Source: Geitlerinema sp. BBD 1991-9 (GTDB lineage: Bacteria > Cyanobacteriota > Cyanobacteriia > Cyanobacteriales > Geitlerinemataceae). Taken from it: a DNA stretch of 64,000 nt. This document shows, one piece after another, positions 53,950 to 60,936 of the stretch. The notes below the pieces were generated by a model that was not told the origin of the DNA, did not search any database, and worked only from the letters and a program-made list of their open reading frames with translations. The stretch lies in the NCBI GenBank assembly GCA_001657325.1, contig LWRO01000001.1:124001-188000 (forward strand), given 5' to 3'. The position numbers and the translations under genes are program-made. Within the stretch, counting starts at the first letter, position 1. Every line of letters starts with the position of its first letter.

Positions 53950-54633
53950 ATGTTTTGTCCCCAACCTCAGCGAAAACGCCGATGGTGGTTAAGTTGGTTG
54001 AGATCGATCGCCGTTGGTTTCGCTCTGGCTTTCCTGCTCGCAAGCCTGTGGCGGTTTCTCCAAGCCTATCAGTATGCTAACGACCCAATTGATGCCGTTT
54101 TGGTTCTCGGCGGGAGTATTAAACGGGAACTCTATATCTCGCAATACGCTCGATCGAATCCCGACATCCCCATTCTCATCTCTTCCGGGTCGAAGCCACC
54201 CTGCATTTATCTAATTTTTCAGCGAGACAACGCCCCAATGGAGAACATTTGGCTGGAAAACTGCGCTCGATCGACCTTCGAGAATTTCTACTACAGCTTA
54301 CCCGTGTTAGAGCGATGGGGTGTTCGGAAAGTATTACTGGTGACGTCTTTAAGCCATCTTCCTCGATCGATGTGGCTGGCACAAATCGTTCTCGGATCTC
54401 ACGGTCTTTGGGTCGAACCGAACATCGTTCCCGAAATCGGCGTTCCAGGGAATCGCGAATTTCCCCTCAAAACGATCTTGGACGTGGCGCGAAGTTTATT
54501 TTGGGCTTTTGTTAGCCAGGTTTATAGCCCTTCGTGCGATCGAGAGGTTCGGTTAGACACCGTCAATCTCGAAACTTGGCAAGCACGGGGGTTTCAATGC
54601 GAACATCAAGCCCAAATTGAGAGCGACAATTAG
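53950..54633 (+). CDS. YdcF-like DUF218 protein
   Basis: 227 residues. The N-terminal membrane helix (about 17-37) precedes a Rossmann-like DUF218 domain: DAVLVLGGSIKRELY, ISSGSKPPC and NCARSTFENFYYS, VLLVTSLSHLPRSMWLA. DUF218/YdcF proteins bind S-adenosylmethionine or nucleotides and are linked to envelope polysaccharide. A paralogue lies at 56920, beyond gltA. The C-terminal tail is longer here. Confidence 0.85.
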   Translation: MFCPQPQRKRRWWLSWLRSIAVGFALAFLLASLWRFLQAYQYANDPIDAVLVLGGSIKRELYISQYARSNPDIPILISSGSKPPCIYLIFQRDNAPMENIWLENCARSTFENFYYSLPVLERWGVRKVLLVTSLSHLPRSMWLAQIVLGSHGLWVEPNIVPEIGVPGNREFPLKTILDVARSLFWAFVSQVYSPSCDREVRLDTVNLETWQARGFQCEHQAQIESDN

Positions 54634-55666: not shown

Positions 55667-56806
55667 ATGTCGGTTGACGAGCTGTACAGACCCGGTTTAG
55701 AGGGGATTCCCGCTGCCAAGTCAAGCATCAGTTTTATTGACGGCAAACAAGGAATCCTCGAGTATCGGGGTATTCGCATCGAGGAGCTTGCCGAGAAAAG
55801 CAGTTTTTTAGAAACGGCTTATCTTCTCATTTGGGGTGAGCTGCCGAGTAACCAAGAATTAAAAGACTTCGAACACGATATCCGCTATCACCGACGGATT
55901 AAATACCGCATTCGGGACATGATGAAATGCTTTCCCGAAAGCGGTCATCCTATGGATTCCCTCCAAGCCTCAGCTGCAGCACTCGGTCTGTTTTACTCCA
56001 AACGTGCCCTCGACGACCCGATCTACATTCGCAATGCGGTCGTCCGTCTGCTGGCCAAAATCCCCACCATGGTCGCTGCGTTCCAGTTGATGCGGAAAGG
56101 GAACGATCCAGTACAGCCCTGTGACGATCTCGACTACGCCGCAAACTTCCTGTATATGCTCAGCGAACGGGAACCCGACGAACTGGCTGCGCGCGTATTC
56201 GATGTTTGTTTGACGCTGCACGCCGAACATTCGATGAACGCCTCGACGTTCTCCGCCATGGTGACAGCCTCAACGCTGACTGACCCCTACGCCGTCATTG
56301 CTTCGGCGGTAGGAACTCTCGGTGGCCCGCTCCATGGGGGTGCGAACGAAGAAGTAATCGAGATGCTCGAAACAATCGGTTCTCCGGAAAACGCTGCAGC
56401 CTATGTCGATGATTGTGTAGTGAAGAAGAAAAAAATCATGGGGTTCGGACATCGGGTCTATAAGGTGAAAGATCCCCGTGCGACGATTTTGCAAGAGTTG
56501 GCCGAACAGTTATTCGATAAGTTCGGTGGCGATCGATACTACGATATCGCCGTCGAGTTAGAACGGCACGTCGAAAACCGTCTCGGCGGGAAAGGGATCT
56601 ACGCCAACGTCGATTTTTACTCTGGCTTGGTGTATCGGAAACTGGGAATTCCCACCGACTTGTTCACGCCGCTGTTTGCGATCGCGCGGGTAGCCGGTTG
56701 GCTGGCACACTGGAAAGAACAACTGGAAGAAAACCGCATCTTCCGCCCGACCCAAATTTATGTGGGCGAACGAGAGCGTGTTTACACCCATCTGTTTGAA
56801 CGTTAA
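55667..56806 (+). CDS. gltA: Citrate synthase
   Basis: 379 residues, forms citrate from acetyl-CoA and oxaloacetate, the entry to the TCA cycle. Motifs are standard: GLEGIPAAKSSISFID start, the active-site LGGPLHGGANEEV and the second GFGHRVYKVKDPRA, and the C-terminal VDFYSGLVYRKLGIP with the catalytic Asp. In cyanobacteria it feeds 2-oxoglutarate for nitrogen assimilation. ATG 55667 gives the family N-terminus. Confidence 0.95.
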   Translation: MSVDELYRPGLEGIPAAKSSISFIDGKQGILEYRGIRIEELAEKSSFLETAYLLIWGELPSNQELKDFEHDIRYHRRIKYRIRDMMKCFPESGHPMDSLQASAAALGLFYSKRALDDPIYIRNAVVRLLAKIPTMVAAFQLMRKGNDPVQPCDDLDYAANFLYMLSEREPDELAARVFDVCLTLHAEHSMNASTFSAMVTASTLTDPYAVIASAVGTLGGPLHGGANEEVIEMLETIGSPENAAAYVDDCVVKKKKIMGFGHRVYKVKDPRATILQELAEQLFDKFGGDRYYDIAVELERHVENRLGGKGIYANVDFYSGLVYRKLGIPTDLFTPLFAIARVAGWLAHWKEQLEENRIFRPTQIYVGERERVYTHLFER

Positions 56807-56919: not shown

Positions 56920-57513
56920 ATGTGGGTAGACTGTGACAGTCAGTGGCAACGACGCTCCCGTAAGCATTGGCGGATAGGTGCTTTACTGGGTTCGATCGCT
57001 TCGATTTCGATCGCGAGCGTTGGTTGGGTCGGTCTGCGAACTTATCAGCGTTTCGTACGTCTTCCACAAGCTGTTCTCGTTCTCGGTGGCTCTCCCGAAC
57101 GCGAAGTCTTTGCCGCAGAATTCGCGAGTACCCATCCCAACCTACAGGTTTGGGTATCCGGTGGCAGCAATCCCGAGTATGCTGAATGGGTGTTTGCTGA
57201 AGCTGGCATTGAGGGCGATCGACTGCACCTCGACTACCAAGCCGTCGATACGGTGACGAACTTCACGACCTTAGTCGACGAACTGAAAGCCCGAAAAATT
57301 AATTGTGTTTACCTCATCACCTCGGACTATCATATGCGTCGCGCCTTCACGATCGGCGAAATTGTCCTCGGTAGCCGAGGTATTAGCTTTCGTCCGATTT
57401 CCATTCCTTCTAACACCCAGCCCGAACCGATTGAAAAATCTCTGCGCGACGGGGCAAGAGCTTTATTTTGGCTGGTGACGGGGTACACGGGAGCAACACT
57501 TCGGCATTGGTAA
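56920..57513 (+). CDS. YdcF-like DUF218 protein, second copy
   Basis: 197 residues. An N-terminal hydrophobic helix (about 20-42) is followed by the DUF218 core: QAVLVLGGSPEREVF, VSGGSNPEY, DTVTNFTTLVDEL and YLITSDYHMRRAFTIGEIV. It is a paralogue of the gene at 53950, with similar arrangement but without its C-terminal tail. The ATG at 56920 is the start. Confidence 0.87.
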   Translation: MWVDCDSQWQRRSRKHWRIGALLGSIASISIASVGWVGLRTYQRFVRLPQAVLVLGGSPEREVFAAEFASTHPNLQVWVSGGSNPEYAEWVFAEAGIEGDRLHLDYQAVDTVTNFTTLVDELKARKINCVYLITSDYHMRRAFTIGEIVLGSRGISFRPISIPSNTQPEPIEKSLRDGARALFWLVTGYTGATLRHW

Positions 57514-57561: not shown

Positions 57562-58293
57562 TCAAGTTTCCAAAATGCCTAAAATTCGGGTGAAATCGTC
57601 AATTTCACCGACAATACGTCGCACGGGGCCTGGCCAAGCGCGAATGAGCGTCGGCGTAGCTGAAACGCGATCGGCTTCCGCTTGCTGGGGATGTTTCAAC
57701 ACGTCGATCACTTTCAGGGTGTAAGGATGTCCCAAGGCAAGTTCGAGGGTTTGGTGAAGTCGTAGTAGCGTCTCCTCCGTCGTCGAACTATCTCCCCGGA
57801 TAAACAGGCGAAACACGTAGCCCTCCGTTTTCGCATCCTCGTCCTCCATCGGCCAAGTTCCAGAAACGCCGACTTCGCCCACGCGGACGAGTGCGTCGTG
57901 CCCCGTCCACAATTGTGGAAACCGCTCCCGGTACGGAGCTACAGCTAACGGATTGCACAATTCGATCGAAATCGGTTTCACGCGCCAAGTAATTCCCTCT
58001 AGCCCGAATACAGCGTTGAGAACCGCCCGATAACGCCAAACGGCTGGAGCCGTTTCGGCTACCGTAACAACCGTTTGCGTGTTGGCGTCGAGATATCGAT
58101 CGATCGTGGCACTATAACAGGGAATTAAAAAATGGGGAGGTTCCGGAAGTCCCAAAAGTTCCTGAACTGCCAGGCAAAGCTGCAAGTGCCATCGAGCGCG
58201 TTTTTGCAAGTCGATGGCGTACACGCAATCGCCGCCCGGGGTGAACAACGCCAACCCTTTAAACGCTTGAGGAAGCGATCCCTCCTGTATCAC
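57562..58293 (-). CDS. KaiB-like domain protein of the pilT operon
   Basis: 243 residues. The first 150 or so residues form a cyanobacterial domain I do not recognise further (GLALFTPGGDCVYAID, LGLPEPPHFLIPCYS). The last 80 match the KaiB thioredoxin-like fold: YVFRLFIRGDSS, the hallmark LKVIDVLKHPQQAEADR, SATPTLIRAWPGPVRRIVG. It follows pilT by 5 bases, so both are in one operon. A link between clock-type signalling and pilus retraction is an inference. Confidence 0.8.
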   Translation of the reverse strand: MIQEGSLPQAFKGLALFTPGGDCVYAIDLQKRARWHLQLCLAVQELLGLPEPPHFLIPCYSATIDRYLDANTQTVVTVAETAPAVWRYRAVLNAVFGLEGITWRVKPISIELCNPLAVAPYRERFPQLWTGHDALVRVGEVGVSGTWPMEDEDAKTEGYVFRLFIRGDSSTTEETLLRLHQTLELALGHPYTLKVIDVLKHPQQAEADRVSATPTLIRAWPGPVRRIVGEIDDFTRILGILET

Positions 58294-58298
58294 GAAAC

Positions 58299-59600
58299 CT
58301 AAACGCGACCGCGTAAGAACTGAGCCATTTCGTTCGGCGTGGGAGACTTATCGAGCGCAATCTCTTCTGTAATCCGCCCCTCCTGATACAACTGGAACAG
58401 GGCTTTGTTCATCGTTGTCATCCCATCGAATTCCGAACGTAGCATCACCTGAGTGATATCTTCCATTTTTTCTTGGATAATATATTCTTTAATCGCATCG
58501 GTTGCAATTAAGATATCGTGGAACGCGGCTCGTTTTCCGTCGGTGGTTTTACACAACCCTTGAGCGATAATTGCAATGAGAGATTCAGAAAGTGCGACCC
58601 GAAACGCAGGCTGTTCTGCGGGTGGAAACATCCCCATTACCCGTTCGATGGTTTTCACCGCACTGTTGGTGTGCAACGTTCCCATGACCAAGTGACCGGT
58701 AGACGCGGCTTTCAAAGCGATATTCATGGTTTCCTTGTCCCGAATTTCCCCAACGAGGATCAAATCGGGATCTTCCCGCAATGCCGCTTTGAGTGCGTTA
58801 AAAAATTTCAAGGTGTGACGGCCGACTTCCCGGTGTTTGATGAGCGACTTCTGGCTTTTGTGAACGAATTCTACCGGGTCTTCAATTGTGATGATGTGAT
58901 AGGCTTTATTGCGATTGATATAGTCGATCATCGCCGCCATCGTCGTGGATTTTCCGGAACCCGTCGGTCCCGTTACTAAGACCAGTCCCTTGTGATAATC
59001 CAGGCTGATGCTTTTGAAAACTTCGGGCAGGCGCAACTGTTCCATCGTGAGAATGGTCGCCCCGATCAGACGCAAGACCATTGCCGGACCAGCTAGGGAG
59101 TCGAACACGTTAATCCGTACCCGCACGAATCCCAAATCTGCCGCACCGTCGAAGTCGAGGTTTTCTTGGAACTGACGGATATCGTCGTCGCTCATCAGTT
59201 CCCGCAACCAACTCATGAACGTATCGAGGTCAGTTTCCGGCCATTCTGTTGGCATGATGTCGCCTCGAGCGCGGTAACGGGGGATTTCCCCAACACCAAC
59301 GTGAACGTCAGAGTGGCCTTCATCGTCCGCCCGCTTGATAATTTCGCGCATCGTCGGATGACCGGGACTCGGACCGGGGCCGCGTCGGGGCGTTGCCGCT
59401 TGGGCGGGAGGCGGCGGAGCCGCTGGAGTGCGAGACGCCGGTGGTGGGGGCGGAGCCACCGGAGTGCGAGATGTCGGTGGGGGCGGCGGTGCGGCCGGTG
59501 GGCGTTGGGCGCTCGTCGGGGGCGCAGGAGGACGTGGAGGAGGTGTGCGACGACCGCCAGGAGGTGGCGGGGGAACGGGAGGGCGCTTAGACTCTGTCAT
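58299..59600 (-). CDS. pilT: Type IV pilus retraction ATPase PilT
   Basis: 433 residues. The hexameric ATPase depolymerises pilin for twitching/gliding. Walker A GPTGSGKSTTMAAM, Asp box TIEDPVEFVH, Walker B DLILVGEIRDKETM and His box LVMGTLHTNSA are present, with C-terminal SLIAIIAQGL. A proline-rich repeat of about 75 residues at the N-terminus (PPPPP/APPPP units) is unusual compared with classical PilT and may bind partners. A KaiB-like gene follows in the operon. Confidence 0.93.
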   Translation of the reverse strand: MTESKRPPVPPPPPGGRRTPPPRPPAPPTSAQRPPAAPPPPPTSRTPVAPPPPPASRTPAAPPPPAQAATPRRGPGPSPGHPTMREIIKRADDEGHSDVHVGVGEIPRYRARGDIMPTEWPETDLDTFMSWLRELMSDDDIRQFQENLDFDGAADLGFVRVRINVFDSLAGPAMVLRLIGATILTMEQLRLPEVFKSISLDYHKGLVLVTGPTGSGKSTTMAAMIDYINRNKAYHIITIEDPVEFVHKSQKSLIKHREVGRHTLKFFNALKAALREDPDLILVGEIRDKETMNIALKAASTGHLVMGTLHTNSAVKTIERVMGMFPPAEQPAFRVALSESLIAIIAQGLCKTTDGKRAAFHDILIATDAIKEYIIQEKMEDITQVMLRSEFDGMTTMNKALFQLYQEGRITEEIALDKSPTPNEMAQFLRGRV

Positions 59601-59820: not shown

Positions 59821-60936
59821 ATGCTGTCATCGCCCATTCGCGTTTGCATTATCTTGGGAACCCGACCGGAAGCGATTAAACTCGCCCCAGTCATCCGTCA
59901 TTTCCAAGAGGCTTCTGAATTCAAAACGCAAGTCGTACTGACGGGACAACATCGAGAAATGGTACAGCAGGTCATGGACTTGTTCGACCTGCGTGCCGAT
60001 CGAGACCTCGATATCATGAAACCTCAACAGACGTTAACGGAAATCACCTGTCGGAGTTTACAGGGATTAGAAGCGGTCTTTCGGGAGCTTTTGCCTCAAT
60101 TAGCCATCGTGCAAGGGGATACGACAACGGCATTTGCCGCCACCCTCGCGGCGTTCTACCAGCAAATTCCCGTCGGTCACGTGGAGGCGGGTTTGCGAAC
60201 CGATCGACTGTACGATCCCTATCCTGAAGAGGCGAACCGACGGCTGATTTCTCAACTGACACAACTGCATTTCGCTCCTACGACGCGGGCGGTGGCCAAC
60301 CTACACAAATCGGGAGTTGTTGGAGACGTTCACCACACGGGGAATACTGTGATCGATGCGTTGCTTTCGGTGGCACGACAGACCCCCCGCTGCGACGTAC
60401 CGGGACTCGACTGGACGAAATATCGCGTGTTGCTGGCGACGGTTCACCGTCGAGAGAATTGGGGAGAACGACTCGACTCGATCGCGAGGGGCTTTTTAAA
60501 AATTCTCGATGCGGTTCCCGATACGGCTTTGTTATTGCCCCTACACCGTAACCCTACAGTACGGGAACCGTTACAGGCACTTCTAGGAAACCACGATCGA
60601 ATTTTTCTCACCGAACCCCTCGATTACACGGCTTTAGTGGGGGCGATCGCTCGCTGTACTCTCTTACTCACCGATTCGGGTGGCTTGCAAGAAGAAGCGC
60701 CCGCGTTGGGAAAACCCGTTTTAGTCTTACGAGAGACAACCGAACGCCCGGAAGCCGTCGAAGCGGGAACGGCGAAACTGGTCGGAACCCAGATCGATCG
60801 AATCTTAACGGAAGCGAAAACCTTACTCAACGACGCAAGCGCTTACCGGCAAATGGCTACAGCGACCAATCCCTTCGGCGACGGCCGTGCGTCGGAGCGA
60901 ATTGTCAAAATCGTTGCAGATTACTTTCAACAATAG
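59821..60936 (+). CDS. wecB: UDP-N-acetylglucosamine 2-epimerase (non-hydrolysing)
   Basis: 371 residues. It interconverts UDP-GlcNAc and UDP-ManNAc for surface polysaccharide. It starts CIILGTRPEAIKLAPVI, has TGQHREMV, HVEAGLRTD, VHRRENWG and the UDP site LTDSGGLQEEAPALGKPVLVLRETTERPEA. It is divergent from pilT and 41 bases before the potassium channel. Confidence 0.95.
   Translation: MLSSPIRVCIILGTRPEAIKLAPVIRHFQEASEFKTQVVLTGQHREMVQQVMDLFDLRADRDLDIMKPQQTLTEITCRSLQGLEAVFRELLPQLAIVQGDTTTAFAATLAAFYQQIPVGHVEAGLRTDRLYDPYPEEANRRLISQLTQLHFAPTTRAVANLHKSGVVGDVHHTGNTVIDALLSVARQTPRCDVPGLDWTKYRVLLATVHRRENWGERLDSIARGFLKILDAVPDTALLLPLHRNPTVREPLQALLGNHDRIFLTEPLDYTALVGAIARCTLLLTDSGGLQEEAPALGKPVLVLRETTERPEAVEAGTAKLVGTQIDRILTEAKTLLNDASAYRQMATATNPFGDGRASERIVKIVADYFQQ

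Follow-up and report, generated by a model that had tools for sequence, protein, structure and literature searches.

Two adjacent genes on the minus strand make up the locus in the window, a 64,000-nucleotide stretch of the Geitlerinema sp. BBD 1991-9 genome. The first, pilT2 (58299..59600), encodes a PilT-type retraction ATPase of 433 amino acids. The second, kaiB-4 (57562..58293), has a GTG start and encodes an elongated KaiB of 243 amino acids; the gap between the stop of pilT2 and the start of kaiB-4 is 5 bases (58294..58298). A first-pass annotation had described the two genes and their 5-base spacing correctly. Its label "pilT operon" was misplaced, since the pair is distinct from the pilBTC locus: on contig C90, this genome has a pilB with another PilT behind it. 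The pair forms a free-standing two-gene unit. Upstream, an epimerase gene (59821-60936, plus strand) is divergent from the pair, and downstream, a DUF218 gene (56920-57513, plus strand) converges on kaiB-4. This gene and a second DUF218 gene on the same strand (53950-54633, plus) flank a citrate-synthase-like open reading frame (55667-56806). A scan of the pair for promoters and terminators gave three weak matches resembling promoters and a single one resembling a terminator; the ends of the two genes coincide with none of them.

Domain structure of PilT2 and KaiB-4

The PilT protein matches the profile TIGR01420 with 445 bits, above the curated cut-off of 319. In a tree of 40 PilT rows, it groups with the other PilTs linked to KaiB-4, which form one clade (support 96/98) apart from the clade of pilB-linked PilT1; a few PilTs unlinked to KaiB-4 also belong to the linked clade. 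The proline-rich N-terminal extension (59361..59600, minus strand; approximately 80 residues, 45% proline) had been considered unusual, but most members of the linked clade carry one (in two rows it is short or none is readable), and it is normal for this paralogue, because a 2025 review gives exactly this feature as the hallmark of PilT2 (PMC12288463). The published cyanobacterial PilT2, a second PilT beside the pilB-linked PilT1 with a proline-rich N-terminus, is matched by the window protein, which by its sequence is of the PilT2 type. The same review regards the function of PilT2 as unsettled. A third PilT of the genome (L211, G000:C106) has a short proline-rich N-terminus and falls in a separate clade.

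KaiB-4 comprises a cyanobacterial N-terminal domain (approximately residues 11-137; 57883..58263, minus strand), supported by a 71-row alignment and the AF2 model, a linker that is variable in the alignment and of low pLDDT (approximately residues 138-158; 57820..57882, minus strand), and the KaiB domain (approximately residues 159-242; 57568..57819, minus strand), for which a fold-switched thioredoxin-like shape is predicted. The KaiB-type C-terminal domain noted in the first-pass annotation is borne out by PF07689 (80.9 bits, cut-off 27); the match is confined to residues 162-237, and residues 1-157 have no Pfam match. Against the circ_KaiB equivalog, the protein scores 64.2 bits, far under the cut-off of 145.3. 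An N-terminal extension of approximately 150 residues, restricted to cyanobacteria and joined to a KaiB domain, is the architecture of the "elongated KaiB" family, in which the function of the extension is unassigned (Schmelling 2017, PMC5520375) and the KaiB domain has been renamed KaiB-4 (PMC10808063). On this sequence evidence, the window protein is a member of that known family. Of the 80 best-matching homologous loci, 79 come from cyanobacterial records and one from a record labelled Gracilibacteria (L084); the latter carries a cyanobacterial pilT-kaiB-4 pair and is probably a mis-binned contig.

The N-terminal domain is modelled well by AF2 (pLDDT 85, pTM 0.80). Foldseek found no fold match in the PDB (best E 0.05), the best match of the domain profile to PDB sequences was amphiphysin (E 0.021), and no Pfam family matched better than E 0.04. 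All Foldseek, PDB-profile and Pfam matches were treated as chance, and assignment to a longin/roadblock or other known fold was rejected. In one genome (G197, locus L182), a KaiB-4 that lacks most of this domain is still located behind pilT2.

The full-length AF2 model of KaiB-4 has a mean pLDDT of 65.6, with values of about 60-75 in the KaiB domain. The predicted order of secondary structure elements in this domain, β-α-β-α-β-β-α, is the fold-switched topology. Its best Foldseek matches are KaiB bound to KaiC-CI (5jwr, 5jwo) and 8UBH (TM 0.86 on target), the NMR structure of the KaiB-TV4 domain from T. elongatus vestitus in the fold-switched state (PMC10808063); 8UBH is also the best PDB match to KaiB-4 of the window. 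The mutations G89A and D91R have been reported to lock KaiB in the fold-switched shape (PMC6378743). Numbered against the KaiB of the same genome, glycine is found at position 89 in 0/33 KaiB-4 sequences and aspartate at position 91 likewise in 0/33; both are residues that favour the ground state of KaiB. The LKVID motif of the strand that docks KaiA and CikA is invariant in all 33, and the C-terminal tail is shortened compared to the genome's own KaiB. The KaiB domain of KaiB-4 is thus predicted, on the basis of models and alignment, to adopt the fold-switched, KaiC-binding shape. 8UBH is 100% identical to the C-terminal domain of KaiB-4 from one genome of our sample (G089) over the 82 residues compared, and in that genome kaiB-4 starts 4 bases past the stop of pilT2. 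The only KaiB-4 domain shown by experiment to be fold-switched thus belongs to a pilus-motor locus.

Conservation and natural loss of the gene pair

A phylum-wide draw of 386 genomes gave 99 kaiB-4 loci from other genomes in addition to that of the window; obvious KaiB-4 pseudogenes were left out, and the truncated G197 locus was counted among the 99. In 90 of the 99, the gene immediately upstream and in the same orientation is an intact pilT2; with the window's own genome included the count is 91/100, and these loci span many families. Conservation of the pair across cyanobacteria, which the first-pass annotation had proposed as a check, is thus far above chance. The distance between the two genes ranges from an overlap to several hundred bases; it exceeds 150 bases in many strains, and co-transcription may thus not apply throughout. 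An intervening rpoZ, suggested by the rpoZ-sll1532 operon of Synechocystis (PMC3985657), was rejected, as no rpoZ-like reading frame was seen by eye in the gaps of the best 80 loci. PilT2 appears likely to occur also without KaiB-4, since many genomes lacking KaiB-4 carry two PilTs. The protein family is already known, and we found no paper that reports its pairing with pilT2; text searches of PMC5520375, PMC10808063 and the other literature searched gave no mention of the linkage.

Three genomes of one genus (G183, G268 and G147 of g32; 2.8-3.1 Mb) contain neither PilT nor PilB, and keep KaiA and KaiC. From their genome size and a relative of 4.8 Mb (PMC11131595), they are probably diatom spheroid-body endosymbionts. 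In each, a pilT2 pseudogene is located upstream of kaiB-4 (L136 in G183, L145 in G268, L183 in G147). An in-frame TAA is common to the pseudogenes of G183 and G268, and pilT2 was thus probably dead before the two split. Across the divergence of these two genomes, KaiB-4 shows a dN/dS of 0.14 (dS 0.20), and the KaiB domain alone 0.07; judged from these ratios, KaiB-4 is intact and under purifying selection after the loss of pilT2. In G147, kaiB-4 itself has decayed; as KaiC is kept there, the clock does not need KaiB-4. Two further genomes (G051 and G233) have PilT1 and no PilT2, and their KaiB-4 shows a dN/dS of 0.14. All four genomes found with KaiB-4 and without PilT2 keep KaiC, and KaiA was found in each.

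The converse loss is seen in G326, the sole genome without a full KaiC in a genus sample of six. Its kaiABC site (L240, G326:C106) is reduced to fragments of kaiA and kaiC, canonical kaiB is absent and SasA is frame-broken. KaiB-4 is retained intact beside PilT2 and, by three-point comparison, its branch shows no excess length over those of sister genomes when set against PilT2. In a second genome (G039), no KaiC exceeds the cut-off, but the assembly may have a gap where kaiABC lies, and we do not count it as evidence. No KaiB-4 genome was found that lacks both PilT2 and KaiC; this carries little weight, because each loss is rare and the absence is expected by chance.

As KaiB-4 outlives PilT2 in four genomes and kaiC in one, it would be neither a pure PilT2 accessory nor a pure KaiC ligand. 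The role of strict PilT2 accessory is rejected by G183, G268, G051 and G233, and that of strict KaiC ligand is weakened by G326. KaiB-4 seems to have some role without PilT2 and, less surely, some role without KaiC.

A possible adaptor between clock and pilus

The first-pass annotation had proposed that the protein ties pilus retraction to the clock. We consider such a tie plausible: the conservation of the pair across the phylum and the predicted KaiC-binding shape of the KaiB domain speak for it, and what falls away is an exclusive tie, to pilus retraction because of the four PilT2-less genomes and to KaiC because of G326. The reading that fits best, and which we prefer only tentatively, is that KaiB-4 is an adaptor with two partners, which connects the clock to the pilus through putative binding to both KaiC and PilT2. 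kaiB-4 would be co-transcribed with the gene of the second pilus motor. Its KaiB domain would be permanently fold-switched, the shape that in the clock binds the CI ring of KaiC, and may bind KaiC in the same way, and the N-terminal domain found only in cyanobacteria would contact some other partner. PilT2 would be one target, and KaiB-4 would have at least one other use for which PilT2 is not required. The most likely job of such a protein would be to pass the state of the clock (KaiC) to the activity of surface pili. A two-partner adaptor accounts for all the gene-loss cases, as the four PilT2-less genomes keep KaiC and the KaiC-less genome keeps PilT2. Against it stands that neither partner is obligatory: KaiB-4 occurs without any pilus motor in G183 and G268, and without kaiC in G326. 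In Cyanothece 51142, kaiB3 (cce_0435) is listed in a figure legend as oscillating in constant light (PMC4431719). The published cce_0435 primers fit kaiB-4 of related strains, each primer with 2-4 mismatches, and this primer match identifies the gene as a KaiB-4 homologue.

Survival of KaiB-4 after the loss of either partner, together with a conserved N-terminal domain unique to the family and without known relative, would also be expected if the protein serves a third partner. The KaiB domain would then be no more than a thioredoxin-like module for binding, which may also hold for the non-circadian KaiB of Legionella, and pilT2 and the clock would be incidental. We think this rather unlikely, as it leaves the conservation of the pilT2 neighbourhood over deep divergence unexplained. 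KaiB-4 could instead be purely a clock component, a ligand of KaiC-CI competing with KaiB, SasA and CikA, to which pilT2 is merely a co-expressed neighbour. The predicted fold-switched domain and the retention of KaiC, with KaiA, in all four PilT2-less genomes agree with this, but G326, with remnants of kaiA and kaiC, no canonical kaiB and a broken SasA, maintains an intact KaiB-4 that has not changed faster in relation to PilT2, and G147 dispensed with KaiB-4 while keeping KaiA and KaiC; such a role is a less probable one still. Least probable is a regulator dedicated to the second motor and acting only on PilT2, for which the KaiB domain would have been co-opted to bind ring ATPases: despite the 91/100 linkage and the retention of both proteins in the kaiC-less G326, it is refuted as the sole function by the conserved KaiB-4 of G183 and G268 (beside a pilT2 pseudogene) and of G051 and G233, unless the genes in those genomes are silent.

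For the two-partner adaptor, a stronger form can be considered, in which a KaiB locked in the fold that binds KaiC forms a physical bridge between the hexameric ring of KaiC and hexameric PilT2, with the clock acting by protein contact and not only by gene expression. We regard this coupling as unlikely on present evidence. In Synechococcus elongatus, the circadian clock controls both competence and the biogenesis of pili (PMC7125226), and a direct protein link, if true, would thus add a new type of output to the clock. Both PilT2 and KaiB-4 occur widely among cyanobacteria, and the function of neither is settled; through their conserved pairing, each gains a partner that can be put to the test. 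The gene-loss cases show which of the simple models fall short of a full account.

Compared to the canonical clock KaiB, the domain is homologous, and KaiB-4 keeps the invariant Y-x-LKVID and PTL motifs and a nearly invariant RR; it differs in the added N-terminal domain, the shortened C-terminal tail and the absence of G89 and D91. The N-terminal domain of SasA, which binds KaiC-CI (6x61), is likewise a fold-switched KaiB-like domain fused to another domain. Unlike SasA, which is the weaker sequence match, KaiB-4 has no kinase, and its extra domain is N-terminal and without known relative.
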